NCBI RefSeq assembly: GCF_947503465.1
Contig: NZ_CANNDN010000002.1
Span: 434,001 to 498,000 of the forward strand
DNA length: 64,000 nt
Source: an uncultured Tateyamaria sp.
GTDB lineage: Bacteria > Pseudomonadota > Alphaproteobacteria > Rhodobacterales > Rhodobacteraceae
Direction: 5' to 3'
Both the position numbers and the translations under genes were made by a program. Below, piece after piece: positions 1,594 through 59,002 of this stretch (positions are counted from its first letter, which is position 1; the number at the start of each line of letters is the position of its first letter). The notes under the pieces are model-generated. The model ran no database searches, had not been told where the DNA came from, and worked only from the letters and a program-made list of their open reading frames with translations.

Positions 1594-2678
1594 TGTGCTG
1601 CCGGTCCCTCTTTTGCTGTCGCGATCCACCCATCCCGGTACAGGCGCGTATGGTCCGGCCGAAACGCCAGATGCACCTCTGCCCCCTGTTCAGGCAACTC
1701 ACCCTCGACTATGGCCTTGACGGGCGCGTCGCCCACCATCGCCTCGACCACGGCGTGACGGCCTACATCCGACACCTTGCGAACCCGTGCAGGCAGGCCC
1801 GCATCTGCAAGCGCGACAAATTCAGGGCGGATGCCGATCTGCGTGATGCCACCCTGCCCGGTCACAGCCCCTTCCAGGGCCACCGCGCGGCCCTGGAAGC
1901 GCACACCGCCATCGCGTTCTTCTGCGGGCAGGACATTCATGCCGGGCGAGCCGATGAAGTGACCCACGAAAATGTGCTGCGGCCGTTCGAACAGTTCCAC
2001 GGGCGTGCCGATCTGCACGATCTCACCGTCCTGCATCACCACCACCTGATCGGCAAAGGTCAGCGCCTCGGTCTGGTCATGGGTGACATAGATCATCGTG
2101 GCACGCACACGCTGGTGCAGTTCCTTCAGCTTGGACCGCAGCTTCCACTTCCGATGCGGGTCGATCACGGTCAGCGGTTCGTCGAACATGACGACGTTCA
2201 CGTCGTCGCGGACCAATCCCCGCCCCATCGAAATCTTCTGCTTGTTGTCGGGGGACAGATGCGCGGCGCGGATGTCGAGCATCTCCTCGACCTCCAGCAT
2301 CTGCGCAATCTCGGCCACGCGCTGCGCGATCCGCGCCTCGTCCACGCCGCGGTTGCGCAGCGGAAAGGCCAGATTGTTGCGCACCGTCATCGTGTCGTAG
2401 ATCACCGGGAACTGGAACACCTGCGCGATGTTGCGCTGATCGGGCGGCAGGTCGGTCACATCGCGGTCGTCAAACAGGATGCGCCCCTCGGACGGGGTCA
2501 GCAGGCCTGAGATGATATTGAGCAGCGTGGACTTGCCACAGCCCGACGGTCCCAGCAACGCATAGGCCCCGCCGTCCTGCCAATCGAGGTCGATTTCCTT
2601 GAGCGCATAGTCCGCAGGCCCCGAAGGCTTCGGCAGGTAGGAATGGCGTAGGTTCGAAAGCGTGATCTTGGCCATCAT
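1590..2678 (-). CDS. ABC transporter ATPase with degenerate signature motif (GlpT-like)
   Basis: Cytoplasmic ATPase of 362 residues. Walker A (GPSGCGKST), Q-loop (VFQ), Walker B (VVMFDEP) and H-loop (YVTHDQTEAL) are intact, but the ABC signature reads LSPDNKQK instead of LSGGQ. A C-terminal MalK-like regulatory/TOBE region follows. It is encoded directly after a second, different ATPase and overlaps the permease gene by 4 bp. Two non-identical ATPases in one importer are characteristic of the GlpS/GlpT pair of glycerol ABC systems. The signature loss here complements a defect in the partner, suggesting one active and one degenerate ATP site. A second in-frame ATG one codon later is an equally possible start. 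Confidence 0.9.
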   Translation of the reverse strand: MMAKITLSNLRHSYLPKPSGPADYALKEIDLDWQDGGAYALLGPSGCGKSTLLNIISGLLTPSEGRILFDDRDVTDLPPDQRNIAQVFQFPVIYDTMTVRNNLAFPLRNRGVDEARIAQRVAEIAQMLEVEEMLDIRAAHLSPDNKQKISMGRGLVRDDVNVVMFDEPLTVIDPHRKWKLRSKLKELHQRVRATMIYVTHDQTEALTFADQVVVMQDGEIVQIGTPVELFERPQHIFVGHFIGSPGMNVLPAEERDGGVRFQGRAVALEGAVTGQGGITQIGIRPEFVALADAGLPARVRKVSDVGRHAVVEAMVGDAPVKAIVEGELPEQGAEVHLAFRPDHTRLYRDGWIATAKEGPAAQ

Positions 2679-2691
2679 GTCGCTCCGGTGC

Positions 2692-2711
2692 GGTGCGCAT
2701 GAATGCGCACC
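2692..2711. repeat. inverted repeat (REP-like) between the two ATPase genes
   Basis: Perfect 9-bp arms GGTGCGCAT and ATGCGCACC flank a 2-base centre in the gap between the two ATPase genes. Further partial copies of the GTAGGGTG/GGCGCACC theme continue to about position 2748, giving the gap a REP-like, foldable character. It may affect mRNA stability or reflect a dispersed repeat family; the rest of the genome is needed to tell. Confidence 0.5.
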
Positions 2712-2766
2712 CTACAGGGTGCCGTAGGGTGTGCCTTGACGGCGCACCAATGCTGGGAAATCCGGG

Positions 2767-3831
2767 TCATGCCACGAGCCTCCCATCTTGAGAAAAATAA
2801 AACGCCTGGCTGGCATCCATGTAGAAATCATGCGCCTCGCCCACCTCATAGGGATGCACCCCATGGGCCAAAGATACCCAGCCGTCGCCCCCCATTTGGA
2901 AATGCGCACTGGACTCGGACCCCGACAATTCCGTTACCAAAACCTTACCGGATAATTTAACATAATCTGTCCCCGCGGGGACAGGCGTCACATGATGCGG
3001 TCGGATTGCGAGGGTATAGGACCCGTCGGGAAGGTCTGCCGCGGCACCTGCAACAGTCCAGCTTGCCCCGGTATCAAGGGTCGCTGTCGTCCCCGACTTC
3101 GACATCCGCGCCGCGTTGATCGGCGGATCCGAGAACACGCGCGCGGCGGTCAGATTTTCGGGCTTGCGATAGATGTCGGCGGTCGTTCCGAACTGCGTGA
3201 CCACGCCGTCATCCATCAACGCGGTCTTGCCACCCAGCAACAACGCCTCTTCCGGTTCGGACGTGGCGTAGACCACGACCGCCCCACGTCCTGCAAACAG
3301 TTCCGGCAGTTGTTCCCGCAATTCCTCGCGCAATTTGTAATCCAGGTTCGCCAGCGGTTCGTCCAGAAACACGGCCCGGCTTTCCTTGGCAATCGCGCGC
3401 GCCAGCGCAGTCCTTTGCTGCTGCCCGCCTGACAGCTCTTGCGGGCGGCGGTTGAGCATGGGGCGGAGTTGCAGGATGTCTGCGGCCTCCTCCACCCGGC
3501 CCTGAATTTCGGACTTGGCCATGCCTGCAACCCGCAAGGGGGAGGCGATGTTGTCGTAGACCGTCATCTGGGGGTAATTCACAAAGAACTGGTGCACGAG
3601 GCTGATATTGCGCTTTTGCGTGGACAGCTTGGACACGTCGCGCCCGTCCATCCAGATCTCGCCACCGGCCAGCGGGTCAAGGCCCGCCATCAGCTTAATC
3701 AAAGAGGTTTTGCCCGATCCGGTCTGGCCCAGAAGGACGTTGAAATGTCCCGTCTCCAGCACCAGAGAGGTCGGCTTGATATGGGTGATCCCGCGGATCG
3801 CCTTCGCGGCCGATTTCAGCTCGATTGTCAT
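2767..3831 (-). CDS. ABC transporter ATPase lacking the H-loop histidine (GlpS-like)
   Basis: Cytoplasmic ATPase of 354 residues. Walker A (GQTGSGKTS, near residues 35-43), signature LSGGQQQR and Walker B (AVFLDEPLANLD) are canonical. At the switch/H-loop position the protein reads VVYATSEPEEAL where MalK-type ATPases have VTHD, so the catalytic histidine is absent. A C-terminal TOBE-like regulatory domain follows. It is the first ATPase after the binding-protein gene and forms the natural partner of the signature-deficient ATPase downstream. In a head-to-tail dimer the two defects fall in the same ATP site. Assignment to the GlpS family is by recalled resemblance. Confidence 0.9.
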   Translation of the reverse strand: MTIELKSAAKAIRGITHIKPTSLVLETGHFNVLLGQTGSGKTSLIKLMAGLDPLAGGEIWMDGRDVSKLSTQKRNISLVHQFFVNYPQMTVYDNIASPLRVAGMAKSEIQGRVEEAADILQLRPMLNRRPQELSGGQQQRTALARAIAKESRAVFLDEPLANLDYKLREELREQLPELFAGRGAVVVYATSEPEEALLLGGKTALMDDGVVTQFGTTADIYRKPENLTAARVFSDPPINAARMSKSGTTATLDTGASWTVAGAAADLPDGSYTLAIRPHHVTPVPAGTDYVKLSGKVLVTELSGSESSAHFQMGGDGWVSLAHGVHPYEVGEAHDFYMDASQAFYFSQDGRLVA

Positions 3832-3843
3832 AAGTCTCGTCCC

Positions 3844-3902
3844 GTAGGCCGGGCTTCAGCCCGGCACACCCCATGCGGATGCCGGGCTGAAGCCCGGCCT
3901 GC
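3844..3902. repeat. pair of palindromic REP-like units in inverted orientation
   Basis: Two copies of a unit containing GCCGGGCTTCAGCCCGGC, each itself an inverted repeat, lie in opposite orientation separated by about 13 bases. This is the layout of a BIME-type REP pair. It sits between the binding-protein gene and the first ATPase gene. Such elements after periplasmic binding-protein genes commonly stabilise the upstream message or limit downstream expression; that role is inferred here. Confidence 0.6.
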
Positions 3903-3906
3903 AATC

Positions 3907-3936
3907 GGTGGTCCCCGCGTCCCCGCGGGGACCACC
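3907..3936 (-). terminator. strong stem-loop downstream of the binding-protein gene (attenuator candidate)
   Basis: A perfect 13-bp stem (GGTGGTCCCCGCG / CGCGGGGACCACC) with a 4-base loop begins 6 bp after the stop codon of the binding-protein gene. There is no U-tract, so it is more likely an RNA-stabilising or partial-attenuation hairpin than a full terminator. It would explain overproduction of the binding protein relative to the membrane subunits. Confidence 0.55.
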
Positions 3937-3942
3937 TGTCGC

Positions 3943-5676
3943 TTATTGCTGCCAGCGCGCGACCAGTTCGTCGTAGTTGACGGTCTCGCCCTGCGGCTTC
4001 TCGTTGTCGAGCTTCGGCTTGGCACCGCCATTGGCGAACCACCATTCGGCATCCCGCTCTTCGTTCAGACGCGGGCCGCAGCCGCCATAGACACCTGCCG
4101 CTTCGTCCGCCTGCTGCATCCGGGCCATGGTGATATCCATTTCCTCGGCCAGACGGTTCATCGCTTCCTGCGGTGTGAAGGCACCGGAGTTCACGTCACC
4201 GATCTGCTGCCACCAGATTTGGGCCAGCTTGGGGTAATCGGGCACGTTGATGCCAGTGGGCGACCACGCCACGCGATCAGGCGAGCGGTAGAACTCGACC
4301 AGACCACCCAGCTTGGGCGCGCGTTCGGTAAAGCTTTCGTGGTTGACCGAGCTGTCGCGGATGAAAGTCAGACCCACATGGGACTTCTTCACATCCACAG
4401 TCTTGGACGTCACGAACTGGGCATAGAGCCACGCGGCCTGCGCACGATCCGATGGTGTCGATTTCAGGAAGGTCCAGGACCCCACATCCTGATAGCCAAC
4501 CTTCTGTCCTTCGGTCCAGTATGGTCCGTGCGGGCTGGGCGCCATCCGCCAGAGCGGCATGCCGTCGTCGTCCACGGTGTTATTGCCTTCGGATTTCGGC
4601 TTGACCATATCGGCGGTAAAGGCGGTGTACCAGAAGATCTGCTGGGCCACGTTCCCTTGGCTAAGCGCAGGAAGAGATTGATAAAAATCAAACGAGGCCG
4701 CACCGGGTGGCGCGTATTGGCGCAGCCATTCATCCCATTTGCGGATCGCATAAACCGCCGCAGGGCCGTTTGCCGCACCGCCACGTGTCACAGACGCGCC
4801 CGCAGGGTTGCAGGACCCTGCTTCCATGCGGATGCCCCATTCGTCGATCGGCACGCCGTTTGGCTCGCCCACCGAACCCGCACCGGCCATCGACAGCCAC
4901 GCGTCGGTCATGCGCCAGCCAAGGTCCGGGGCGCGTTTGCCGTAATCCATGTGGCCATAGATGCGGACGCCGTCGATTTCCTGCACATCTTCCGAGAAGA
5001 ATTCGGCGATGTCCTCGTAAGCCGACCAGTTGACCGGAACACCCAGTTCATAGCCGTACTTGGCCTGGAATGCGGCCTTGTTTTCTTCGTCATCGAACCA
5101 GTCCTTGCGGAACCAGTACAGGTTCGCAAATTGCTGGTCGGGCAATTGGTAGAGGTTGCCATCGGGACCGGTGGTGAACTGGATGCCCATGAAGTCTTCC
5201 AGGTCCAGCGTCGGGCTTGTGGTGTCTGCCCAATCGCCGGCCATCTGCTCCGTCAGGTTGTAGGCCAGTTGCAGGCGCGAGTGGGTGCCGATCAGGTCCG
5301 AATCGTTGACGTAACCGTCATAGAGGTTCCGCTGTGTCTGCATCTGCGTTTGCACAGCCTGCACGACCTCGCCTTCGCCAAGGATCTGGTGGTTCACCTT
5401 GATGCCGGTGATTTCCTCGAACGCCTTGGTCAGCACTTCGGATTCATAGCCATGCGTCGGAATGCCTTCGGACAGCACGTTGATTTCCATGCCCGAGAAC
5501 GGCTCGGCTGCCTGGATGAACCATTCCATTTCCGACATCTGCTCGGCCTTGCTGAGCGTGGATGGCTGGAATTCCTGGTCAATCCATTTCTGGGCTGCCG
5601 CCGTGTCGGCAAAAGCAGTCCCATGCCCCGCAATGACTGCAAGCACAGCCGTCGCGGAGAGAAGATACTTGCGCAT
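3943..5676 (-). CDS. ABC transporter substrate-binding protein, GlpV-type (large family 1)
   Basis: Periplasmic solute-binding protein of 577 residues, much larger than typical 400-residue sugar binders and matching the length of glycerol binding protein GlpV. The start MRKYLLSATAV is preceded by GGAGGA at 6-bp spacing; an N-terminal Sec signal peptide ends near AFA-DT. Conserved-looking blocks include LPDQQFANLYWFR and SHVGLTFIR, which I recall from GlpV homologues. First gene of the transporter operon, behind a recognisable promoter. Glycerol genes (glpD, glpK) are absent nearby and a betaine-type catabolic cluster is adjacent, so the ligand may be a polyol or a betaine-like compound; sequence alone does not decide. 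Confidence 0.9.
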   Translation of the reverse strand: MRKYLLSATAVLAVIAGHGTAFADTAAAQKWIDQEFQPSTLSKAEQMSEMEWFIQAAEPFSGMEINVLSEGIPTHGYESEVLTKAFEEITGIKVNHQILGEGEVVQAVQTQMQTQRNLYDGYVNDSDLIGTHSRLQLAYNLTEQMAGDWADTTSPTLDLEDFMGIQFTTGPDGNLYQLPDQQFANLYWFRKDWFDDEENKAAFQAKYGYELGVPVNWSAYEDIAEFFSEDVQEIDGVRIYGHMDYGKRAPDLGWRMTDAWLSMAGAGSVGEPNGVPIDEWGIRMEAGSCNPAGASVTRGGAANGPAAVYAIRKWDEWLRQYAPPGAASFDFYQSLPALSQGNVAQQIFWYTAFTADMVKPKSEGNNTVDDDGMPLWRMAPSPHGPYWTEGQKVGYQDVGSWTFLKSTPSDRAQAAWLYAQFVTSKTVDVKKSHVGLTFIRDSSVNHESFTERAPKLGGLVEFYRSPDRVAWSPTGINVPDYPKLAQIWWQQIGDVNSGAFTPQEAMNRLAEEMDITMARMQQADEAAGVYGGCGPRLNEERDAEWWFANGGAKPKLDNEKPQGETVNYDELVARWQQ

Positions 5677-5726
5677 CTTGTGTCCTCCCAAATTTCCATG
5701 TGAGCCGGTTTTCTCCGACTTGAGCT

Positions 5727-5926: not shown

Positions 5927-6307
5927 TCATTCTTCGTCAAGCACCCGGCGCGCGACCCGGAAACATTCCAACCCCTGCGGTACACCGCAATAGATCGCCA
6001 CCACATGGATGATGGCGCGGATTTCTTCGCGGCTGACACCGTTCGTGATGGCCCCGCGGCAATGGATTTCCCATTCGCTCATCTTCCCCAGCGCGCCGAT
6101 CATCGCAAGATTCATCATCGACCGCGTCTTGGCGTCGATCACATCGTCGCCCCAGCCAAACCCCCAGCACCACGCGGTCATCGCCTCTTGGAACGGTCGC
6201 GTGAAATCGTCAGCGGCGGCGAGGTTCCTTTCCACGTATTCCGCGCCCAGGGTCGCCTTGCGCTGTTCGAGGCCTTTCAGAAACAGGTCTTCGTCAAAGG
6301 TGCTCAT
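5927..6307 (-). CDS. carboxymuconolactone decarboxylase family protein
   Basis: Small cytoplasmic protein of 126 residues. The conserved core is clear: KTRSMMNLAMIGAL, then HCRGAITNGVSREEIRAIIHVVAIYCGVPQG, matching gamma-carboxymuconolactone decarboxylase rather than the CxxC-bearing AhpD peroxidase branch. It is the last gene of the RpiR-Rieske-CMD operon, and its ATG overlaps the Rieske stop (ATGA). No protocatechuate-pathway genes are nearby, so a role in lactone or keto-acid processing downstream of the betaine-like substrate is possible but unproven. The true reaction is unknown. Confidence 0.88.
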   Translation of the reverse strand: MSTFDEDLFLKGLEQRKATLGAEYVERNLAAADDFTRPFQEAMTAWCWGFGWGDDVIDAKTRSMMNLAMIGALGKMSEWEIHCRGAITNGVSREEIRAIIHVVAIYCGVPQGLECFRVARRVLDEE

Positions 6308-7410
6308 TGGGTGTCTCCTTGGGCTTGCGGTGCGTCTTCTATGGCCGCGCGCATCCAGCGTTGCAAATGCATGACCGGATGTTCGGAATTCACCCCGCCC
6401 TTTGGATCGACAACCAGCGGTCCGGGCACATATCCGCGCGATTGCAGGCCGCGTTGGACGGATTCCACCAGTCCGATATCTTCTTCGACCGTGGTGGCGC
6501 GATCCTGAACCGCAAGCCGTCGCACGGTTTCGTCGTCTGCGCCGTCCACCGAAAACCAGCCCCGCCAGACCACCACATTTTCAGCGTCGATGGCCCGCCA
6601 GTGGTAGGTGTTCAGCACATTGCCCGGATAGACCTGAAAGCTGAACATGGGCCACAGGAACCAGCTGGAATATTCGTGGCTGTGGGCAAAGCCGCTGTCG
6701 ATATCATAGGTCATCTGATCCAGTGACTGGCATTGCGTCGTGTGGCGCAGGCACTTGCCTTGCGGCTGGATGTCGTAGGTATCGGGCCGGACCACGCCGT
6801 TGGCAAAGGTCGGGTGGTTCAGGCTGCAATGGTAGCATTCCGAGTAGTTTTCGACGCTGACCTTCCAGTTGCAGCGTTCCGCGATCTCGACCCATTCGAG
6901 CGGGCGCAGGTCGGCCCAGTTGGGCACCCAGTCTTCCAGTTCCGCGCGTGCGTTCGGGAACCAGTCGTCCATGGGGGCCGCGTTCGGGTCAAGGTTGACG
7001 AAGACGAAGCCAAGGAACTCTTCGACCCGGATGGACGTGAGGCAGATTTCGGATTTTTGCAGCCCTTCGACCGCCTTGAGGTTGGGGCCTGCGCGCAACT
7101 CTCCGGTCAGTTCATAGGTCCACGCGTGGTAGGGGCAGACGATGACGCGGGTCGTGCCGCTGCCCTGCACCAGTTGGTGCGCGCGGTGCTGGCAGACATT
7201 GTAGTAGGCACGGATCACACCGTCGCGCCCCCGGATGGCAAAGAGGCTTTCGCCCGCAACCTCGAAACAGCAGTAGGCGCCGGGTTCGCCAAGGTCGGAG
7301 GCGTGGCAGGCAAATTGCCAGGTTTGCGCCAGCAGCCCGGCCCGTTCGACGGCAAACATGGTGGGGTCGGTGTAATAGCGCGCGGGAAGCGCGCGGATCG
7401 GTTCGGTCAT
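6304..7410 (-). CDS. Rieske non-heme iron oxygenase alpha subunit, quaternary-amine demethylase type
   Basis: Oxygenase of 368 residues. The Rieske [2Fe-2S] ligands are C73/H75 (CQH) and C92/H95 (CPYH). The mononuclear iron site is NYSECYHCSLNHP, with H194 and H199 as ligands and E191 in the bridging position. The glutamate in the bridge and the ECYHC context resemble glycine betaine (GbcA), carnitine (CntA) and stachydrine/hydroxyproline-betaine demethylases more than aromatic dioxygenases. The likely reaction is O2-dependent N-demethylation releasing formaldehyde. It overlaps both neighbours by 4 bp (RpiR upstream, CMD downstream). No cognate flavin/ferredoxin reductase is encoded in this window; it must come from elsewhere. 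Confidence 0.88.
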   Translation of the reverse strand: MTEPIRALPARYYTDPTMFAVERAGLLAQTWQFACHASDLGEPGAYCCFEVAGESLFAIRGRDGVIRAYYNVCQHRAHQLVQGSGTTRVIVCPYHAWTYELTGELRAGPNLKAVEGLQKSEICLTSIRVEEFLGFVFVNLDPNAAPMDDWFPNARAELEDWVPNWADLRPLEWVEIAERCNWKVSVENYSECYHCSLNHPTFANGVVRPDTYDIQPQGKCLRHTTQCQSLDQMTYDIDSGFAHSHEYSSWFLWPMFSFQVYPGNVLNTYHWRAIDAENVVVWRGWFSVDGADDETVRRLAVQDRATTVEEDIGLVESVQRGLQSRGYVPGPLVVDPKGGVNSEHPVMHLQRWMRAAIEDAPQAQGDTQ

Positions 7411-8294
7411 TCGGACCCCTCGGTATACAGACCAATGCGGTGACGGCGGGCGTGAAACGCCTCGACCCGCTCGACGATCTTGTCGGTGGATTGGGCGATG
7501 ACAAACGACAGAAGCGTTTCGAGCAGCGCGATGGTGCTGACCGAGGACGGAAAGAACTGCGGCGTGTCGGCGGCCACGACAAAGCCATGGTCGGCGGCGC
7601 GGTAGAGCGGGCTGGCGGGGCTGTCGGTTATCCCGATGATTGTCATGCCCTGTTCGCGCGCAACCTCGACCGCTTCGATCACTTCGCGGCGGTAGGGGGC
7701 GCAGGTGATGGCGATCAGGACATCGCGGTCGTCGCTCCAGGCCAGATCGTCTGTCGCGACGGACCCGGCGCGGGGGATCGCATGGAATTGCACCATGCCG
7801 GTCGAGGCAAGATAGGTGAAGTTGCGGGCGTTGGCATTGTTGACCCCGACACCAAGCACAAAGACGTTTCGGCAGGTCCAGATGGCCTTGGCTGCCGCGG
7901 TCAGGGCGTCGGTTGGAATGTTGGCGAATGTCTCTTCGATGTTGCGCAAGGCGGATTGGATCATGTCGGCATAGAGCGCGCCAAGCTGGCCGGATTTGCC
8001 GATGTCCTGCAGGTACCGCGCGCGGTCGGGGAAGGTCACCTGCCCCTGGCGGATCGCCTCGCGGAACGGGGCGCGAAAATCCTCGTACCCGTCAAAGCCG
8101 ACCTGCCGCGCCATACGCACAACGGTGTTGGGTTTGACCTGGGCCGCTTCCGCAATCTCGCGCACGGTCGACACACCTATGTCGCGGGGGTTTTCCAGCA
8201 CGTATTTGGCGGCCTTCTGCGCCTCGGGCGTGAGGTCGCCGAATTCGTCGGACAGACGGGTCAGGACGCGCGATGATACATCTGTGTCATTCAT
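7407..8294 (-). CDS. MurR/RpiR family transcriptional regulator
   Basis: Regulator of 295 residues: N-terminal HTH_6 domain (about residues 5-80, with REIAEAAQVKPNTVVRMARQVGF as the helix-turn-helix) and a C-terminal SIS sugar-phosphate-binding domain (about 125-265). First gene of the RpiR-Rieske-CMD operon and divergent from the DMGDH operon, with under 70 bp between them. This position makes it the obvious local regulator of both operons and probably of the ABC transporter operon, whose promoter carries a nested palindrome. SIS domains usually bind phosphosugars, so its effector in an apparent betaine cluster is an open question. Confidence 0.92.
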   Translation of the reverse strand: MNDTDVSSRVLTRLSDEFGDLTPEAQKAAKYVLENPRDIGVSTVREIAEAAQVKPNTVVRMARQVGFDGYEDFRAPFREAIRQGQVTFPDRARYLQDIGKSGQLGALYADMIQSALRNIEETFANIPTDALTAAAKAIWTCRNVFVLGVGVNNANARNFTYLASTGMVQFHAIPRAGSVATDDLAWSDDRDVLIAITCAPYRREVIEAVEVAREQGMTIIGITDSPASPLYRAADHGFVVAADTPQFFPSSVSTIALLETLLSFVIAQSTDKIVERVEAFHARRHRIGLYTEGSE

Positions 8295-8362
8295 AATTGA
8301 CGAAGGTATAAATGTACGATTAGCGTGTCGAGCATTATTTGCGCCAACCCGAGATGCGATTC

Positions 8363-10819
8363 ATGGCTGAGAGTGATTTTCCGACCCACGCGCGGGTCGT
8401 CATCGTGGGGGGCGGCGTGATGGGCGTGGGCCTTGCCTATCACCTTGGCCATGAAGGGTGGGGCGCGGACACGGTTCTCCTGGAGAAGGCGGAACTGACC
8501 AGCGGCAGCACGTGGCATGCTGCCGGGCAGATCACGCATTCGACGTCCAGTTTCTCATTGGGCAAATGCGTCGATTACAACATCGGCCTGTATTCCGGCG
8601 GGCTTGAGGCAGAGACGGGCCAGCCTGTCACTTGGCATGGCTGCGGGTCCTTTCGCCTCGCCTATACCGAGGACGAGATGGATTGGCTGCGGCACACGTT
8701 GTCGGTGGGCCGGTCCCTTGGGTTCAACATAGAGCTGGTCGGCCCCGAGCGTGTGGCCGCATTGCATCCGTTCTACAATCTGGACGGCGTGCTGGGCGCG
8801 CTGCACACACCCGATGACGGGCATGTGGACCCGACAAATGTAACTATGGCGATGGCGGCGGGCGCGCGGGCCAAGGGGGTCCGCATCGTGCGCCGCTGTC
8901 GCGCGACGAACATCACCCAGGGCACGAACGGCGCATGGGTGGTCGAAACGGAGCGCGGCACCATTTCCTGCGAACACGTGGTCAATGCCGGCGGCACCTA
9001 TGCCCGCCAGATGGGCGAATGGTCGGGGCTGCAACTGCCCATGACGTCGATGACCCACCATTACTTCGTGACTGACGAGGTGCCGGAATTCCGCGATCTG
9101 GACACCGAACTGCCGGTCATCCGCGATGACAAAAAAGTCTCTGGCTACATCCGGATGGAACAGAAGAAGGGGCTGATCGGCATATACGAAAAGGCCAATC
9201 CAAACACGGTGTGGGAGGATCATTGCCCGTGGGAGGCCGAGAACGAACTGTTTGATGCGGACTATGACCGGGTGATGCCGTGGCTTGAGGAAAGCCTGAA
9301 CCGCATGCCCATCTTTGCGAACCTTGGGATCACCCGCGATGTGCACGGGGCCATCAGCCATCCCCCCGATGGCAACCCGCTGATTGGCCCCGCGCCGGGT
9401 GTGCGGAACTACTGGTGTTGTTGTGGCACACAGATCGGGATTGGCTGGGGGCCGGGCCTGACGCGCGAACTGGCGCGATGGATGGTGCATGGGGCGGCGG
9501 ACATTTCGATGCGCGATTATGACCCGCGCCGCTTTGGCGGCTATGCCACCAAGGACTGGCAAGTGATCAAGGCCAAGGAAGATTACTGTCTGCGCCACGA
9601 GATCCCCTTCCCCCATTTCAACCGGCTGGCCGGGCGGCCGGTGAAACCATCGCCGCTCTATGCGCATCTGAAATCGAAGGGGGCGGTGTTCGAAGACGTG
9701 TACGGCTTTGAGCGCCCACGCTGGTTTGCGACAGGCGGTGTGGCGCAGGAAGACCATTACAGTTTCCGGCGCACGGTTGTGGATGACGTGGTCGCGGCCG
9801 AGGTCAAAGCGGTGCGCGAGGCGGCCGGGATCATGGATGTCACCGCATTTACCAAGGTCGAGGTGTCGGGGCCGGATGCTTACGCCCTGCTGGACCGGCT
9901 GACGGCCAACCGGATGCCACAGAATGTGGGGTCGATCACCCTGACCCACATGTTGAACCGTCGCGGTCGGATCGAATTGGAAACCACGATTGTACGGATG
10001 GCGGAGGATCGGTTCTACCTGGTGTGCGCCGCGTTCTTCGAGCAGCGGTTGCTGGATCACCTGGCACAGCATCAGGGCGATGCGGATGCAAGGGTCAAGG
10101 CGCTGTCGGCGGACTGGTCAGCCCTGTCGCTGAACGGGCCAAAGGCACGCGCCATCCTTGGGGCCTGTACCGATGCCCCCCTCGACAATGCCCGTTTTCG
10201 CTGGCTGTCGGCACGGGAAATCGCGGTGGCGGGTCAGTCTGTCTGGGCCTTCCGCATGTCCTATGCCGGGGAATTGGGGTGGGAACTGCACATGCCCAAC
10301 GCAGCCTGCGTTGATGTCTACGACGCCCTTTGGGCCGCCGGGGCACCGCTGGGCCTGAGGGACTATGGCAGCTTTGCCATGAATGTCATGCGCATGGAAA
10401 AGGGGTTCAAGGGCGCGGGCGAATTGACGAATGAGGTCACTCTGGCCGAAGCGGACGTGCTGCGCTTTGCCCGGGCGGACAAGACGTTCCTGGGGTCCGA
10501 ATGCACCTTCAACACCGACCTGCCCTGGGTCTGCGCCTATCTTGAGATCGAACCTGATGGTGAGATTGATGGCCATGGTGGCGAGGCGGTGTTGCACGAT
10601 GGCGTCGTTGTCGGATCGACCGCATCCGTTGTCTTTGGCCCGACGGTGGGCAAGGGCCTGGCCTTTGCCTACGTCAAACAGTCTGCCGCCACACCCGGCA
10701 CCGCGTTGCAGGTTGTCATTCATGGCACCCCGCGTCGGGCACGCGTGTTGGCCGAACCGGCCTATGACCCACACAGCGTGCGCCCGCGCACCGACAGCCA
10801 CATGGAGACGGCGCCATGA
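8363..10819 (+). CDS. DMGDH/sarcosine-dehydrogenase-like FAD protein with folate-binding GcvT domain
   Basis: Two-domain oxidoreductase of about 818 residues. The N-terminal DAO domain has the FAD dinucleotide fold (VVIVGGGVMGVG) and an STWHAAGQ motif; the His aligns with the covalent flavin histidine of dimethylglycine dehydrogenase. The C-terminal half is a GcvT/aminomethyltransferase-like tetrahydrofolate domain. Expected reaction: oxidative N-demethylation of a tertiary or secondary methylamine with transfer of the C1 unit to folate, the natural step after a Rieske demethylase. Starts at 8354 (ATG) or 8339 (TTG) are alternatives. Its stop overlaps the next gene (ATGA), opening a five-gene coupled operon. 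Confidence 0.9.
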   Translation: MAESDFPTHARVVIVGGGVMGVGLAYHLGHEGWGADTVLLEKAELTSGSTWHAAGQITHSTSSFSLGKCVDYNIGLYSGGLEAETGQPVTWHGCGSFRLAYTEDEMDWLRHTLSVGRSLGFNIELVGPERVAALHPFYNLDGVLGALHTPDDGHVDPTNVTMAMAAGARAKGVRIVRRCRATNITQGTNGAWVVETERGTISCEHVVNAGGTYARQMGEWSGLQLPMTSMTHHYFVTDEVPEFRDLDTELPVIRDDKKVSGYIRMEQKKGLIGIYEKANPNTVWEDHCPWEAENELFDADYDRVMPWLEESLNRMPIFANLGITRDVHGAISHPPDGNPLIGPAPGVRNYWCCCGTQIGIGWGPGLTRELARWMVHGAADISMRDYDPRRFGGYATKDWQVIKAKEDYCLRHEIPFPHFNRLAGRPVKPSPLYAHLKSKGAVFEDVYGFERPRWFATGGVAQEDHYSFRRTVVDDVVAAEVKAVREAAGIMDVTAFTKVEVSGPDAYALLDRLTANRMPQNVGSITLTHMLNRRGRIELETTIVRMAEDRFYLVCAAFFEQRLLDHLAQHQGDADARVKALSADWSALSLNGPKARAILGACTDAPLDNARFRWLSAREIAVAGQSVWAFRMSYAGELGWELHMPNAACVDVYDALWAAGAPLGLRDYGSFAMNVMRMEKGFKGAGELTNEVTLAEADVLRFARADKTFLGSECTFNTDLPWVCAYLEIEPDGEIDGHGGEAVLHDGVVVGSTASVVFGPTVGKGLAFAYVKQSAATPGTALQVVIHGTPRRARVLAEPAYDPHSVRPRTDSHMETAP

Positions 10820-11898
10820 CGTTGCCCGACACGATGAACGCAATGGTCACGATGGGCCATGGCGACATGGACCAGATGGTCTGGCACACCGATTGGCCGC
10901 GCCCCGAGGCCCGCCCCGGCGAAGTGCTGATCAAGGTGGGCGCCTGCGGGTTGAACAACACGGACGTGAACACGCGCTCGGGCTGGTATTCCAAGACAGT
11001 GACCGAGGCCACAAGCGGTGGGGCCTATGACGACGTGGGCGAAGAGGACCCAAGCTGGGGCGGCGCGCCCATCGCGTTCCCGCGTATCCAGGGGGCTGAT
11101 GTGTGCGGCACCATTGTGGCCGTGGGCGCAGGCGTTGATGCGGCCCGGATGGGCGAGCGGATCATCACTGACAACTGGCTGCGCGATCCAGAGGACCTGA
11201 CCGACAAGACAAGGACCGGGTATTTTGGATCGGAACGGGATGGCGGATTTGCCGAGTATACAACCATGCCCGCCCGCAACGCGGTGACTGTGCAGTCTGA
11301 TCTGTCGGATGCCGAGTTGGCAACGTTTTCCTGTTCGTATTCCACAGCCGAGGGGATGCTGACCCGGGCCGCTGTCACCGATGCCGATACCGTTCTTGTG
11401 CCCGGTGCCTCCGGCGGCGTGGGCGGCGCCCTGGTCCAGTTGGCCAGGCGGCGCGGGGCACGGGTGATTGCCCTGGCATCGGAACCCAAGCACGCCGACG
11501 TGGCTGCACTGGGCGCGGATGTCGTTCTGCCCCGCGCGCCCGGCAACCTGCGCAAGGCCCTGGGGGCCGAGAAGATCACCGTTCTGGCGGATGTCGTGGG
11601 CGGGACGTATTGGCCCACGATGATCGACGTGCTTGAGCGCGGCGGGCGCTACACCTGTTCCGGTGCCATTGCCGGGCCAATGGTGACGCTGGATCTGCGC
11701 ACGCTGTACCTGCGCGATCTGACCTTTGCCGGCTCGACCGTGATTGATCTTGAGGTCATGCCCAACCTCGTCCGCTACATCGAAGCGGGCGAGATCAGAC
11801 CGGCGCTGGCCGCGACCTATCCGCTGGCCGAGTTGCACGCCGCCCAGAGCGCCTTCATCGCCAAGGCGCACACAGGCAACATCGTCGTTGTCCCATGA
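10816..11898 (+). CDS. MDR-superfamily (zinc-type/quinone-reductase-like) oxidoreductase
   Basis: Medium-chain dehydrogenase/reductase of 360 residues. GroES-like N-terminal half followed by a Rossmann domain with PGASGGVGGALVQLA. The position usually holding the catalytic zinc Cys (GxCHTD) reads ACGLNNTD, so the protein does not show a classical zinc site and may act more like a quinone or enoyl reductase. Overlaps DMGDH upstream and the first racemase downstream by 4 bp each. Its role in the pathway, perhaps reduction or oxidation of a ring-opened semialdehyde or enoyl intermediate, is inference. Confidence 0.85.
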   Translation: MTLPDTMNAMVTMGHGDMDQMVWHTDWPRPEARPGEVLIKVGACGLNNTDVNTRSGWYSKTVTEATSGGAYDDVGEEDPSWGGAPIAFPRIQGADVCGTIVAVGAGVDAARMGERIITDNWLRDPEDLTDKTRTGYFGSERDGGFAEYTTMPARNAVTVQSDLSDAELATFSCSYSTAEGMLTRAAVTDADTVLVPGASGGVGGALVQLARRRGARVIALASEPKHADVAALGADVVLPRAPGNLRKALGAEKITVLADVVGGTYWPTMIDVLERGGRYTCSGAIAGPMVTLDLRTLYLRDLTFAGSTVIDLEVMPNLVRYIEAGEIRPALAATYPLAELHAAQSAFIAKAHTGNIVVVP

Positions 11899-13001
11899 AG
11901 ATCACGCGCCTTACCGTCTATCAGGTCGATCTGCCGCTTGAGCATCCCTATTGGCTGTCGGGCGGACGGCTGAAGTTCGAGACGCTGGATGCGACGCTGG
12001 TCAGGGTTGAAACCGACGCCGGGCTGATCGGCTGGGGCGAAGGCACGCCGTGGGGACATACCTATGTCCCGGCCCACGGCCCGGGCATACGCGCCGGGGT
12101 CGCGACGATGGCCCCTTTTGTCCTGGGCCTTGACCCGCGCCGGGTGCTGGATGTGGAGCGGGCCATGGACATGGCCCTGCCCGGTCACCTGTATGCCAAA
12201 AGCCCTATCGACATGGCGTGTTGGGACATTGCCGGACAAGCCGCCTGTCTGCCGATCGCCGATCTGATGGGCGGCGGGTCGCGCACGCCGCGTCCCATCG
12301 CGTCCTCTGTCGGGGCCAAGACGGCGGACGAGACCCGCGCCGTCATCGACCGTTACCGCCAGCGGGGATACATCGCCCATTCGGTGAAGATTGGCGGCGA
12401 CGTGGACCGCGACATTGCCCGCATTCGGGATGTCGAGGCACTGCGCGCGCCAGGCGACATCATCCTTTATGACGTGAACCGGGGCTGGACCCGGCAGCAG
12501 GCCCTGCGCGTCATGTCCGCATGCGAAGACCTGAACGTGATGTTCGAACAGCCCTGCGAAAGCCTGGATGGCATTGCCGCCATCGCGCCGCGCCATGCCT
12601 GTCCCGTGTCCATGGACGAAAGCCTTGTCACCCTGCAAGATGCCTGCCGCATCGCGCGCGAGGGGATTGCGGAGGTGTTCGGCATCAAGCTGAACCGCGT
12701 GGGGGGGCTGACCAAGGCGGCGCGGATGCGCGATGTGGCGCTGGCTCATGGGATCGACATGTTTGTGATGGCGACGGGTGGGTCGGTTCTGGCAGACACG
12801 GAAGCATTGCATCTGGCGGCGACGATCCCGGATGCCCATTGCCACGCGGTCTGGGCCTGTCAGGACATGATCACGGCAGAGATCGCAGGCGGGCGCGGGC
12901 CACGCAATCGCGATGGGCATTTGCATTTGCCCGAGGCACCCGGCCTTGGCGTGCACCCTGACGAAGACGCCCTGGGCGATCCGGTCGCGGTCTACGGATG
13001 A
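11895..13001 (+). CDS. enolase-superfamily racemase/epimerase, HpbD-like (paralogue 1)
   Basis: Mandelate racemase/muconate lactonizing enzyme family, 368 residues. Acid-base lysines K165 (HSVKIGG) and K265 (GIKLNRVGG) and metal ligands D193 (YDVNR), E218 (FEQP) and D241 (MDES) are all present, so it should be catalytically competent. Overall layout and length match 4-hydroxyproline betaine 2-epimerase HpbD, as recalled. A tyrosine aligning with the HpbD cage is kept (HTYVPAH), but the C-terminal tryptophan region reads FVMATGGS, so the substrate pocket differs from HpbD and from the neighbouring paralogue. Translationally coupled at both ends. Confidence 0.88.
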   Translation: MKITRLTVYQVDLPLEHPYWLSGGRLKFETLDATLVRVETDAGLIGWGEGTPWGHTYVPAHGPGIRAGVATMAPFVLGLDPRRVLDVERAMDMALPGHLYAKSPIDMACWDIAGQAACLPIADLMGGGSRTPRPIASSVGAKTADETRAVIDRYRQRGYIAHSVKIGGDVDRDIARIRDVEALRAPGDIILYDVNRGWTRQQALRVMSACEDLNVMFEQPCESLDGIAAIAPRHACPVSMDESLVTLQDACRIAREGIAEVFGIKLNRVGGLTKAARMRDVALAHGIDMFVMATGGSVLADTEALHLAATIPDAHCHAVWACQDMITAEIAGGRGPRNRDGHLHLPEAPGLGVHPDEDALGDPVAVYG

Positions 13002-14101
13002 AGATCACGCGCATCTCCTTGTGGCATGTGCCCCTGACAAGCCACGCGACCTATTACATGGCGGCGGGCAAGACCTGCGACACTGTCGAAACGGTCATTT
13101 TGCGGGTCGACACGGATGCGGGTGTGAGCGGTTGGGGCGAGGTGTGTCCGATCCCGAACTACCTGCCGGCCTATGCCCGCGGTGTCGCCCCGGCCATTGA
13201 AGAGATGGCCCCCCTTTTGATCGGCGCCAACCCGGTTGGGGTCGACGCACTCATGGCCCGGCTTGAGGCGCATCTGATCGACCACCGCTATGCCAAGTCC
13301 GCGCTTGATATCGCGTTCTGGGACATCACGGGACGCGTCGCCGACCTGCCCGTACATGCGTTGCTGGGCGGGCGTCAAAGCGAAAGCCTGCCCCTCTATC
13401 ACTCGATCACATGTGTTGACCCCGACGAGATGGCGCGCATCGCGCGCGATGCACAGGCGCAGGGCATCACCCAGTTTCAGGCCAAGCTGGGGGCGTCGGG
13501 CGGGTGGGATACGGATGTGGAACGGCTGGCCAGGGTGCGGGAGGCCGTGGGGCCCGGGCCGTTGGTCTATGGCGACTGGAACTGCGGTGCCACGTCGCTG
13601 GACGCCACGCGCGTGGGCCGGGCCGCGGCCCATCTGGATGTGATGCTGGAACAGCCCTGCCCGACCATTGAAGATTGCGCCCGGGTGCGCGATGCGACCT
13701 GCCTGCCCATGAAGTTGGACGAGGTCGCCCATGACACCGCATCCCTGCTTGAGGCACACGCCCGCGGCTGCATGGATGCCGTTGCCCTGAAACTCAGCAA
13801 GTTCGGCGGGTTGAGCGCGACGCGGCGTGCGCGCGACCTGTGCCTGTATCTGGGCGCGCGGATGTGCGTCGAAGACACCTGGGGCAGTGATATCACCACC
13901 GCTGCCGTCCTGCACCTGGCCGCCGCGACCCCGCCGGACCGGGTGCTGAACACCTGCGACCTGTCGGGCTATGTCAGCCCGCGCCTGGCACCCGATGCCC
14001 CGGTCCGGGCAAAGGGCCGCATTTGCCCCCCGGACGGTCCCGGCCTTGGCATCGCGGTCAATGCCGAGGCATTGGGCCGTCCTGATCACATCTGGGAGTA
14101 G
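12998..14101 (+). CDS. enolase-superfamily racemase/epimerase, HpbD-like (paralogue 2)
   Basis: Second enolase-superfamily enzyme, 367 residues. Acid-base lysines K163 (FQAKLGA) and K265 (ALKLSKFGG) and metal ligands D193 (YGDWN), E218 (LEQP) and D241 (KLDE) are intact. It keeps both aromatic positions that, in recalled HpbD structures, form the cation-pi cage around the quaternary ammonium: the Tyr in IPNYLPAY and the Trp in EDTWGSDI. This makes it the better candidate for a betaine 2-epimerase. Coupled by ATGA to paralogue 1 and followed 3 bp later by the aminotransferase gene. A racemase of another cyclic amino acid derivative remains possible. Confidence 0.88.
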   Translation: MKITRISLWHVPLTSHATYYMAAGKTCDTVETVILRVDTDAGVSGWGEVCPIPNYLPAYARGVAPAIEEMAPLLIGANPVGVDALMARLEAHLIDHRYAKSALDIAFWDITGRVADLPVHALLGGRQSESLPLYHSITCVDPDEMARIARDAQAQGITQFQAKLGASGGWDTDVERLARVREAVGPGPLVYGDWNCGATSLDATRVGRAAAHLDVMLEQPCPTIEDCARVRDATCLPMKLDEVAHDTASLLEAHARGCMDAVALKLSKFGGLSATRRARDLCLYLGARMCVEDTWGSDITTAAVLHLAAATPPDRVLNTCDLSGYVSPRLAPDAPVRAKGRICPPDGPGLGIAVNAEALGRPDHIWE

Positions 14102-14104
14102 CCA

Positions 14105-15379
14105 ATGAAAATCCGCACCCAAGCCGAATGGATTGACCATGCAAGCGCCGTGCTACCGGCGGCCGGGTTTGGCAATTTCGACCCCGGCATCGTGATCGCG
14201 CGCGGCGAGGGATCGCGGGTGTGGGACGAAGATGGACGCGCCTATGTCGATTACCTGATCGGGTCGGGCCCCATGCTTCTGGGCCACGGCCACCCCGAAG
14301 TCATGGAGGCGGTGCTGGAGCAATTGCCCAAGGGCATGACCTTTTTCGCCAACAATGCCGCAGGCATCGAGTTGGCCGCCGCCATCGTGGATGCGGTCCC
14401 CTGCTGCGAACAGGTCCGCTTTGTCACTTCGGGCGGCGAAGCGGACATGTATGCGATCCGGCTTGCGCGCGCCTTTACCGGGCGTACCAAGATCCTGAAG
14501 TTCGAGGGCGGGTATCACGGGATGAGCGCCGAAGCGCAAATGAGCTTGGCACCCGCGCGGGATGTGAATTTTCCGCAGGCCGTTCCCGACAGCGCGGGCA
14601 TTCCCGCCAGCGTGGCGGACCAGATGCTGATCGCGCCTTTCAATGACCTTCGGGCCGTGGCGTCGCTGCTGGATGAACATGCCGATATCGCGGCCATCAT
14701 CGTGGAGCCGTTGCAGCGTATCATTCCGCCGCAACCGGGTTTCCTGCACGGGCTGCGTGAGCTGTGCACGCGCCACGGTGTCTTGCTGATCTTTGACGAA
14801 ATCGTCACCGGCTTTCGCCTCGCCTATGGGGGGGCGCAGGAACATTACGGCGTGGTGCCCGACATCTGCACCTTGGGAAAGATCATTGGCGGCGGGTTTC
14901 CCCTGGCGGCCCTGGGTGCCAGCGCCGATATCATGGCCCATTTCGACAAGGCGCGCGTGGGACAGGGCAAATGGCTGATGCAGCTTGGCACACTTTCGGG
15001 GAACCCGGTCGCATCGGTTGCCGGGTTGAAGACGATGGAGATCCTGCGCAGACCCGGCCAATACGATGCCTTGCGGGCTGTGGGCACAGAGGTGATGGAA
15101 ATGATCAGCACCGCCCTAGCGCATGTGGACGTGCCACACAAGATGTGCGGGGATGCCACGCTGTTTGACGTGATTTTCACGGCGCAGTCCTGTGTGGATT
15201 ACCGGTCGGCCCGTCACGACGATCCGCAACGGAACGCACGGTGGAACGCGGTCTTGCGAGATCACGGCATCTTCAAGTCTCCGGGCAAGCTTTATCCGTC
15301 GCTGGCGCTGACCCGCAACGATATTGAGCGAACCCGTGCCGCCGTTGACGCCGCAGCGACGGCAATTTCACGGCACTAG
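14105..15379 (+). CDS. class III PLP-dependent aminotransferase / glutamate-1-semialdehyde aminomutase-like protein
   Basis: PLP enzyme of 424 residues, fold type I, subgroup II. PLP lysine K259 (TLGKIIGGGFP), cofactor aspartate D231 (FDEIVTGFR) and the phosphate-binding region VTSGGEADMYAIRLAR are recognisable; the last is altered from the usual NSGTEA. Length and the GYHG motif resemble glutamate-1-semialdehyde 2,1-aminomutase relatives used in catabolic clusters. Last gene of the rightward operon. It could transaminate a ring-opened amino-aldehyde or amino-keto acid, or act as an aminomutase; the sequence does not decide. Confidence 0.88.
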   Translation: MKIRTQAEWIDHASAVLPAAGFGNFDPGIVIARGEGSRVWDEDGRAYVDYLIGSGPMLLGHGHPEVMEAVLEQLPKGMTFFANNAAGIELAAAIVDAVPCCEQVRFVTSGGEADMYAIRLARAFTGRTKILKFEGGYHGMSAEAQMSLAPARDVNFPQAVPDSAGIPASVADQMLIAPFNDLRAVASLLDEHADIAAIIVEPLQRIIPPQPGFLHGLRELCTRHGVLLIFDEIVTGFRLAYGGAQEHYGVVPDICTLGKIIGGGFPLAALGASADIMAHFDKARVGQGKWLMQLGTLSGNPVASVAGLKTMEILRRPGQYDALRAVGTEVMEMISTALAHVDVPHKMCGDATLFDVIFTAQSCVDYRSARHDDPQRNARWNAVLRDHGIFKSPGKLYPSLALTRNDIERTRAAVDAAATAISRH

Positions 15380-27324: not shown

Positions 27325-27347
27325 TCCGACCTCTCTCGACATGTTGA

Positions 27348-28298: not shown

Positions 28299-28391
28299 TC
28301 TACTCTCCCTTGATCGGGTCGTGGCCCGCATCGGTTGTTGTGTGGTGCCGTGCGGGCGCGCCGCGTGCAGTCGTGGCAGCCGCCGTGGTCG

Positions 28392-58999: not shown

Positions 59000-59002
59000 G
59001 GC

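Follow-up and report, generated by a model that had tools for sequence, protein, structure and literature searches.

A conserved roseobacter operon, apparently for the breakdown of a methylated amino-acid osmolyte, that carries dddQ in a sizeable share of its relatives

Within the window, by which we mean the whole 64,000-nucleotide stretch analysed from an uncultured Tateyamaria sp., eight genes fill positions 5927–15379 exactly. They represent an operon that is conserved among marine roseobacters, which are major consumers of algal osmolytes, and that apparently serves to degrade a methylated amino-acid osmolyte. At the family level, quaternary-amine ("betaine") catabolism, as proposed in the original prediction, was supported by a CntA-like Rieske oxygenase, a protein resembling dimethylglycine dehydrogenase (DMGDH), and the structure group of two racemases. 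The sequence cannot name the substrate; our best model, to which we assign a probability of about 40%, is the regulated catabolism of an amino-acid betaine resembling (hydroxy)proline betaine, in which a C–N bond is opened oxidatively. In the literature consulted (titles, abstracts, and some passages), the operon was undescribed and no substrate was assigned to it; Todd 2011 and Lei 2018, which perhaps treat the gene context, lay outside this scope. A widespread betaine operon of this kind gives substrate discovery a definite starting point.

In terms of gene order, one strand (−) carries the genes for an RpiR/MurR-type regulator (P0003, 7407–8294; Pfam HTH_6 and SIS), the Rieske oxygenase (P0002, 6304–7410), and a CMD protein (P0001, 5927–6307). 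The other strand (+) carries those for the DMGDH-like FAD and folate demethylase (P0004, 8363–10819), an MDR oxidoreductase (P0005, 10816–11898), two enolase-superfamily racemases or dehydratases, MLE1 (P0006, 11895–13001) and MLE2 (P0007, 12998–14101), the latter being the core enzyme of this type, and a class III aminotransferase resembling GSA aminomutase (P0008, 14105–15379). The gene content, strands, and coordinates predicted earlier agreed with the ORF calls and Pfam domains; no aldehyde dehydrogenase (ALDH) is among the eight. Genes overlap by 4 bp at five of the six same-strand junctions, and the sixth, between MLE2 and the aminotransferase, is a 3-bp gap. The open frame of P0004 has its first start at TTG 8339; the start kept in relatives is ATG 8363. 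In an alignment of 71 relatives and the window, the divergent intergenic block at 8295–8340 was conserved (consensus ATTGAC..TGGTACA.ATGT....TTAGCCTGTC) and is a candidate operator/promoter; a palindrome search of the block gave no exact inverted repeat common to two sequences.

The order and pairing of the genes were found again in dozens of genomes and therefore do not represent a chance run of genes. The relatives' loci are the 80 best among 311 that MLE2 retrieved, a sample that favours close relatives. For the cassette counts given below, 84 loci (L007–L090) were scanned; DMGDH and MLE2 were both present in 76, several of which end at contig edges and rest on a partial DMGDH. The 91 loci used for protein clustering, six of which (L001–L006) are short fragments of the window genome itself, had their ORFs called by a simple script, and some genes were missed or mis-called.

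In a comparison with PDB sequences, P0002 (Pfam Rieske and Ring_hydroxyl_A) aligned along its entire length with the carnitine monooxygenase CntA (216.6 bits). The next matches were 3n0q, named a putative aromatic-ring hydroxylating dioxygenase (120 bits), Stc2 (118 bits), and dioxygenases at ≤99.5 bits, with the best stretch in the N-terminal part; among the 33 PDB matches listed, CntA (two entries) alone had its best stretch over the full length. Y189 and E191 of P0002 correspond to Tyr203 and Glu205 of CntA, and H194, H199, and D311 to the iron triad His208/His213/Asp323; both Tyr203 and Glu205 were kept in 69 of 69 relatives. In the available passages of PMC7948474, the C–N-cutting oxygenases of group Va are marked by Tyr or another aromatic residue at position 203, and the N-demethylases GbcA and Stc2 by Asn. 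Judged from these residues, P0002 carries the group Va signature and not that of the group Vb N-demethylases, and it scored only 150 bits with the GbcA model (cut-off 670). The earlier label of a demethylase-type Rieske protein was not supported. P0002 differs from CntA at each of the six other pocket positions listed in those passages (PMC7948474), which fall in the weakly aligned half; F258 to Y is the conservative change, and all six residues are invariant across the 69 relatives. This difference counts against the best model, and carnitine is not implied. The reductase partner is a further uncertain point, since the best match to the GbcB model reached 147 bits (cut-off 500) and the model also matched 11 of 14 control genomes.

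An ALDH gene lies beyond the Rieske gene in 12 of the 26 loci readable for at least 3.5 kb on that side, which fits the Tyr signature of a C–N-cutting enzyme. For the one such ALDH scanned, that of L026, the top-scoring model was betaine-aldehyde dehydrogenase (406 bits against a cut-off of 669), which favours the best model. Its being closer to betaine-aldehyde than to glutamate-semialdehyde dehydrogenases argues against that model, as does the window genome, in which no cluster-type ALDH was found (best match 45%). The earlier version of the pathway, in which the Rieske protein and DMGDH stepwise N-demethylate a proline-betaine-like compound and the two racemases serve two stereoisomers, now seems doubtful. 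The combination of Rieske, DMGDH, and HpbD-like proteins agrees with it, as do the formaldehyde-activating-family (GFA) genes, whose cluster covers 13 of the 91 loci (with a Pfam scan of one member), but the Tyr in place of Asn at position 203 in all 69 relatives, the ALDH beside the Rieske gene, and the zero to three extra MLEs in relatives all speak against it.

P0004 contains DAO, FAO_M, GCV_T, and GCV_T_C domains over its full length and is nearest to dimethylglycine dehydrogenase (PDB 5l46, 494 bits over residues 8–813). P0008 (Aminotran_3; PDB 2cfb, 313 bits) fell below the cut-offs of both PRK00062 (380 bits, cut-off 398) and HemL TIGR00713 (354 bits, cut-off 527), and the PcaC-like P0001 (Pfam CMD, 65 bits) below that of PcaC TIGR02425 (120 bits, cut-off 155.7). 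Neither the aminotransferase nor the CMD protein has an obvious task in a proline-betaine route, which weakens the best model. So does Lichenihabitans, in which a P0001 homologue (81% identical) and an aminotransferase adjoin an ALDH and occur with a DMGDH homologue (33%), neither an MLE nor a P0002 homologue being present; another annotated ring-hydroxylating dioxygenase gene lies ~4.6 kb away. Likewise, a 20-kb stretch from a different family, with ORFs called by the script used for the 91 loci, combines genes for Rieske, ALDH, DMGDH, and aminotransferase proteins, and no MLE was among those ORFs. The aminotransferase context did not serve to name the substrate: relatives in Bosea, Thermomicrobium, and two more alphaproteobacterial genomes sit in unlike contexts.

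These genes would find their usual tasks, the aminotransferase above all, if the operon channelled an open-chain omega-betaine whose carbon next to the carboxylate is chiral, such as an alpha-substituted beta-alanine or GABA betaine. Here the Rieske protein would cut the trimethyl form to aldehyde and trimethylamine, the DMGDH-like protein would demethylate the di- and monomethyl forms, the aminotransferase would give the same aldehyde, the ALDH would oxidise it, and decarboxylation would fall to the CMD protein or, in some relatives, to a protein resembling arylmalonate decarboxylase. DGTA/DGTS betaine-lipid head groups and carnitine are ideas for such a substrate. This alternative, which we consider somewhat unlikely, fits the betaine-aldehyde-like ALDH, the fact that some relatives have lost the Rieske or MLE gene, the arylmalonate-decarboxylase-like gene in 7 of 91 loci (one member scanned, 27.7 bits versus 25.9), the action of DddQ on a beta-onium propionate, and the likeness to CntA as treated in the available part of PMC7948474. 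Some MDR–MLE pairs, however, lie near cyclic-amino-acid genes (L097, L095/L145). The substrates of the MLE subgroup also stand against it: to our knowledge, its characterised members all act on alpha-amino acids or their betaines.

Both MLEs consist of MR_MLE_N and MR_MLE_C domains. MLE1 is very near PDB 3eez (736 bits over residues 1–367), and the best structure for MLE2 was 4mgg (264.7 bits), which we take to be cis-3-hydroxy-L-proline dehydratase; the structure group nearest to both presumably includes HpbD and this dehydratase. The dehydratase model NF043002 was also the best curated model for P0006 and P0007, at 323 and 338 bits, both below its cut-off of 500 bits. Models of muconate cycloisomerases and sugar-acid dehydratases scored far lower with both, so the racemases did not group with those enzymes, nor did P0002 group with aromatic dioxygenases, CntA being nearest. 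The catabolism of an aromatic compound or sugar acid, with a Rieske dioxygenase, a PcaC-like CMD, and MLEs acting as cycloisomerases or sugar-acid dehydratases, is suggested by the family names only; it is scarcely credible given the model and structure scores of the MLEs and the Rieske protein and an operon without a second dioxygenase subunit. The lysine pair of MR/MLE racemases is catalytic. P0007 has this pair (163/265) and the acidic metal ligands 193, 218, and 241; lysine 265 and the three acids were kept in 74 of 74 members of the MLE2 group and lysine 163 in 73, and the catalytic residues of the MLE1 group in 35 of 35 (counts that include the L001/L002 copies of the window's own MLEs). 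The active sites are thus intact in both, as predicted, with the two lysines and three metal ligands of the HpbD group, as far as sequence alone can tell. The proposal of two HpbD-type racemases for two stereoisomers was not supported as it stood, the pair being one form of a wider pattern.

Clusters for proline-betaine catabolism (hpb) with HpbD are known from Pelagibaca and Paracoccus. The window operon resembles them in having an enolase-superfamily enzyme of the same subgroup, a Rieske oxygenase, an N-demethylase, and a divergent regulator. It differs in its DMGDH-like protein instead of HpbA, its group Va Rieske protein, the aminotransferase, CMD, and MDR cassette, and the betaine-aldehyde-like ALDH of its relatives; no close HpbA was found in the window genome (best match 32%), which again argues against the best model.

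The wider pattern concerns the region between DMGDH and MLE2, which holds zero to three extra MLEs, mostly with an MDR and often with a DddQ-type cupin. Among the 76 loci, an MDR was present in 47, an extra MLE in 47, both in 45, and neither in 27, so that the MDR and extra racemase form a nearly all-or-none, separable cassette. A DddQ-type cupin was found in 29 loci, 28 of them with an MDR, and was absent from this region in 47; one further locus (L025), not in the 29, has dddQ after MLE2. Fisher tests, which ignore relatedness, gave 5e-16 for the pairing of MDR with the extra MLE and 3e-7 for that with DddQ. P0005 (Pfam ADH_N and ADH_zinc_N; PDB 4j6f, 304 bits) has GLNNTD in place of the zinc-site motif and is apparently zinc-free.

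We prefer the (hydroxy)proline-betaine model in view of the CntA-likeness with Tyr203/Glu205, the ALDH neighbours, the DMGDH match, the GFA genes, the best model of the MLEs, and the cassette. MLE2 would invert the carbon next to the carboxylate and so let both stereoisomers enter. The MDR–MLE(–DddQ) cassette may convert hydroxylated or otherwise altered analogues to the core substrate: MLE1, as an alpha-proton abstractor, would epimerise or remove water, the zinc-free MDR would reduce the double bond left by MLE1, and DddQ-type cupins, where present, would perform a related elimination. The Rieske protein would hydroxylate the carbon adjacent to the ammonium group, opening the C–N bond to an aldehyde and an amine; a ring betaine opened in this way would yield a dimethylamino semialdehyde. 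We know of no such C–N cleavage route described for ring betaines. An ALDH, beside the Rieske gene in many relatives and absent from the window operon, would make the acid, the DMGDH-like enzyme would move the remaining N-methyls onto folate, the aminotransferase would remove the freed amine, and the CMD protein would act late.

As a betaine operon this one is ordinary; its interest lies in the native role of DddQ. The dddQ gene is known for the production of the climate-active gas DMS, and its being housed in a good part of the related operons raises the question of what DddQ is really for. The DddQ of PDB 4la2 is identical letter for letter to an operon gene in R. lacuscaerulensis ITI-1157. 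In the window genome, which has the MDR and MLE1 and not the dddQ-bearing form, no dddQ was found at E ≤ 0.01 in a search without a positive control; the same query matched 42 of 248 family genomes. In the available part of PMC3338564, dddQ adjoins SPO1593 in R. pomeroyi and ISM_14095 in R. nubinhibens, and its linkage to an MDR is reported; the window shares the MDR, here with MLE1, and the wider operon described here is new relative to that linkage. The R. nubinhibens MDR, not equated with P0005, is not AcuI and failed to replace YhdH (PMC3338564, same part). P0005 was likewise rejected as an AcuI-type acryloyl-CoA reductase (NF051456, 40.8 bits, cut-off 440).

A sulfonium (DMSP-like) operon with dddQ as its central gene is very improbable. 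In its favour, the crystallised DddQ is encoded in the operon, and the available passages of PMC5395565 describe induction of dddQ by DMSP and dddQ mutants with 97% less DMS in R. pomeroyi and 20% less in R. nubinhibens. The 47 of 76 loci with no DddQ-type gene between DMGDH and MLE2, the window genome with no dddQ found, and the R. nubinhibens MDR argue against it, and the Rieske and DMGDH-like proteins point to nitrogen compounds; the DMSP demethylase model gave P0004 54 bits against a cut-off of 410. It is possible, albeit tentative, that DddQ, although listed as a DMSP lyase, is by origin a part of this betaine operon, with DMS production as a side or later activity, and that the operon opens its betaine by C–N cleavage. 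DddQ would then be a metal-dependent alpha-proton abstractor working with the MDR and MLE1 on an amino-acid betaine by elimination, dehydration, or epimerisation. The operon offers a testable explanation of why DddQ has so low an affinity for DMSP (Km 22 mM, in the same passages of PMC5395565), and metagenomic dddQ counts may in part reflect the use of betaines instead of the production of DMS.

Outside the operon, eight MDR places were opened, and in four the MDR was followed by an MLE; in three of the eight, the pair had hpbA, 3-hydroxyproline genes, or a transporter for glycine betaine nearby. These pairs, which favour the best model, lie close to hpbA and to transporters for proline/glycine betaine (L097); on a stretch of plasmid with aconitase X, an ornithine-cyclodeaminase-like gene, TRAP genes in between, and a cis-3-hydroxyproline dehydratase scoring over its cut-off (L095/L145); near a glycine betaine ABC system (L149); and with Rieske and ALDH genes (L091). 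Against the model stand the weak likenesses of the L095 MLE to MLE1 (35%) and of the L091 Rieske protein to P0002 (29%), and the other four places, where no MLE was annotated and no betaine gene found. At one of these (L098), an ALDH lies upstream and, ~6 kb downstream, a gene for DMSP demethylase.

The lack of a conserved transporter also counts against the best model: none recurred widely, most flanking genes being unannotated, and ABC ATPase clusters recognised among the 40 largest protein clusters reached 6 and 4 of 91 loci at most. The ABC system at 730–5691 was rejected as part of the operon and is a separate sugar/glycerol-type set. Its binding protein is 89% identical in Aliiroseovarius, where it occurs with two ATPases, two permeases, and DUF2160, without the betaine operon within the 15.7 kb examined; among the loci mapped, a relative (62%) was present in L083 only.

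The original prediction had placed eight genes in two divergent sets at 5927–15379, and this placing was correct, with the domain content of all eight borne out by Pfam. One set encodes a CMD protein (P0001), a Rieske oxygenase (P0002), and an RpiR regulator (P0003), and the other a DMGDH-like demethylase (P0004), an MDR oxidoreductase (P0005), two MR/MLE enolase-superfamily racemases or dehydratases (MLE1, P0006, and MLE2, P0007), and a class III aminotransferase (P0008). Five of the six same-strand junctions show a 4-bp overlap of stop and start codons, and the MLE2 and aminotransferase genes are separated by a 3-bp gap. The DMGDH-like gene probably starts at the ATG at 8363 and not at the TTG at 8339, because the former is the start kept in the relatives. 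The divergent intergenic block at 8295–8340, which is kept in 71 relatives and has GGTACANATGT as its core, is a candidate RpiR operator. An aldehyde dehydrogenase (ALDH) gene is absent from the window's operon, and the best ALDH match in this genome (a 4.1-Mb assembly of 10 contigs) is 45%.

The reading of the operon as a quaternary-amine catabolic locus is well supported, with a probability that we place near 0.8. P0002 matched the carnitine monooxygenase CntA over its full length (216.6 bits), and for Stc2 and the remaining structures the best-matching stretch was in the N-terminal part. According to section 6 of PMC7948474, the quaternary-ammonium Rieske group Va (carnitine, choline, and benzalkonium) has Tyr or Phe at position 203, whereas group Vb, which demethylates glycine betaine and stachydrine, has Asn. 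Position 203 (CntA numbering) is Tyr in P0002 and in all 69 relatives, from which we predict that P0002 would hydroxylate the carbon beside the ammonium, leading to C–N cleavage. The six other pocket positions that PMC7948474 names all differ from those of CntA, one conservatively, so carnitine itself is not implied as the substrate; these six are invariant among the relatives, in a half of the protein where the alignment is weak.

A search of the named genome collection with MLE2 found 311 related stretches, and the best 80 of these, by their titles mostly from roseobacter-group Rhodobacterales, were kept. The best match listed was in a Shimia strain (82%), and very near records are possibly omitted there. 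When the window's proteins were mapped onto these 80 loci and four plasmid loci, the core order was CMD, often ALDH, Rieske, and RpiR, divergent from DMGDH, MLE2, and aminotransferase. DMGDH and MLE2 were both present in 76 of the 84 loci scanned, and between them lay no recognised gene in 25 of the 76. An MDR and an extra MLE were each present there in 47 loci, and the two together in 45; the window's MDR and MLE1 therefore form a cassette. The core, too, can be split. One stretch of 20 kb from another alphaproteobacterial family encodes the Rieske protein (67%), ALDH (75%), DMGDH (69%), and aminotransferase (66%), and none of the ORFs called there is an MLE. A plasmid locus in Lichenihabitans encodes the aminotransferase (66%), CMD (81%), ALDH (53%), and a DMGDH homologue (33%), with neither an MLE nor a P0002 homologue; another annotated ring-hydroxylating dioxygenase gene lies ~4.6 kb away.

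The cassettes of two loci (L082 and L086) had more than one DddQ-type cupin (two or three), together with three consecutive extra MLE paralogues. An arylmalonate-decarboxylase-like cluster occurred in seven loci, beyond the Rieske end in six and within the operon in L073, and a formaldehyde-activating-family (GFA) cluster in thirteen (e.g., for these two entries, L058:102-920 and L070:680-1093). One MLE2 orthologue (G558:C48:66152-67252) has an in-frame TAG and is possibly a pseudogene. A roseobacter-type copy of the operon was also found in a supposed Firmicute, Oceanobacillus sp. HTM 045 by its title, on the 110-kb contig WNWL01000009.1 (L067); this assembly is probably contaminated or mislabelled.

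A cupin of the type of DddQ, known as a DMSP lyase, lay between DMGDH and MLE2 in 29 of the 76 loci, in 28 of them with an MDR, and its belonging to the operon in many relatives raises the operon's significance. The protein recurs in the cassette, with 24 copies across 21 of the 91 clustered loci, and each of the four copies scanned contained the Pfam domain DMSP_lyase. The copy from Ruegeria lacuscaerulensis ITI-1157 (L053), whose gene lies between those for the MDR and MLE1, has the same sequence as PDB 4la2, the DMSP lyase DddQ, across 192 residues. The first cupin motif (tyrosines, histidines, and glutamates) was present in all 24 copies and the second-motif histidine pattern in 22. In a survey of 248 genomes of the family (DddQ-like at E ≤ 1e-12, MLE2 at E ≤ 1e-100), 42 had a DddQ-like protein, 41 had MLE2, and 22 had both (Fisher 1e-9, relatedness ignored); the two lay no more than 10 kb apart in 17 genomes, which account for 20 of the 50 DddQ places. 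Seventeen regions covering 19 of the remaining 30 places were examined. One (L128) contained an operon of the same kind without MLE2, four (L123, L124, L127, and L134) had a close MDR, CMD, GFA, or arylmalonate-decarboxylase-like gene, and the other 12 had no window gene above 36% identity. DddQ had no match in the window's own genome.

PMC3338564 describes dddQ as likely co-transcribed with an MDR gene and reports that the R. nubinhibens MDR gene failed to replace YhdH. Several statements of the review PMC5395565 speak against a purely non-DMSP role of DddQ, namely that dddQ mutants produced 97% less DMS in R. pomeroyi and 20% less in R. nubinhibens, that DMSP induces dddQ, and that the role of DddQ in DMSP cleavage is clearly demonstrated; the Km of DddQ given there, 22 mM, is weak.

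The nearest NCBIfam model to both MLEs was cis-3-hydroxyproline dehydratase (323 and 338 bits, below the cut-off of 500). P0006 was very near PDB 3eez (736 bits), an entry with no more specific name than putative MR/MLE protein, and the structure closest to P0007 was PDB 4mgg; the PDB structures of this group include HpbD and C3HypD. In an alignment of 145 sequences (three queries and 142 from the loci, each 330 aa or longer, with the window's L001/L002 copies among the latter), the lysine pair and three metal ligands were retained in every MLE group, the sole exception being one MLE2-group sequence at position 163.

Outside the operon, an MLE followed the MDR at four of the eight annotated MDR places examined. 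The Paracoccus place contains hpbA, a DMSP-lyase-family cupin, ETF genes, and proline/glycine betaine transport, and the Sulfitobacter plasmid place a glycine betaine ABC system. On a Phaeobacter plasmid, the pair is accompanied by a cis-3-hydroxyproline dehydratase over the cut-off, aconitase X, and an ornithine-cyclodeaminase-like gene, with a 34% DMGDH homologue on the same plasmid and TRAP genes in between; the Leisingera place has ALDH and a distant Rieske protein (29%). The other four places had neither an annotated MLE nor a betaine gene; at one of them (L098), an ALDH lies upstream and, at a greater distance, a gene for a DMSP demethylase.

Our best guess at the substrate is a cyclic amino-acid betaine, since proline-type compounds are suggested both by the racemase subgroup and by several of these other cassette homes. 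A strong rival is an open-chain omega-betaine, which would better account for the aminotransferase. With a cyclic betaine, dehydration by an MLE followed by reduction of the double bond by the apparently zinc-free MDR would be chemically sensible, since the enamine of a quaternary ring would be unable to tautomerise and its double bond would have to be reduced.

Elsewhere in the window, an ABC transporter set of the sugar/glycerol kind (730–5691, minus strand, and upstream), with a 582-aa binding protein, two ATPases, and permeases, forms an operon of its own. Its Aliiroseovarius counterpart has DUF2160, and a BlaI/M56-type pair adjoins the set in both genomes. Aromatic catabolism genes at 25699–29747 (minus strand) encode homogentisate dioxygenase (HgmA), an MBL-fold protein, and an FAD-binding monooxygenase-type protein, and a GMC oxidoreductase is encoded with gluconate 2-dehydrogenase subunit 3 at 57215–59689 (minus strand).
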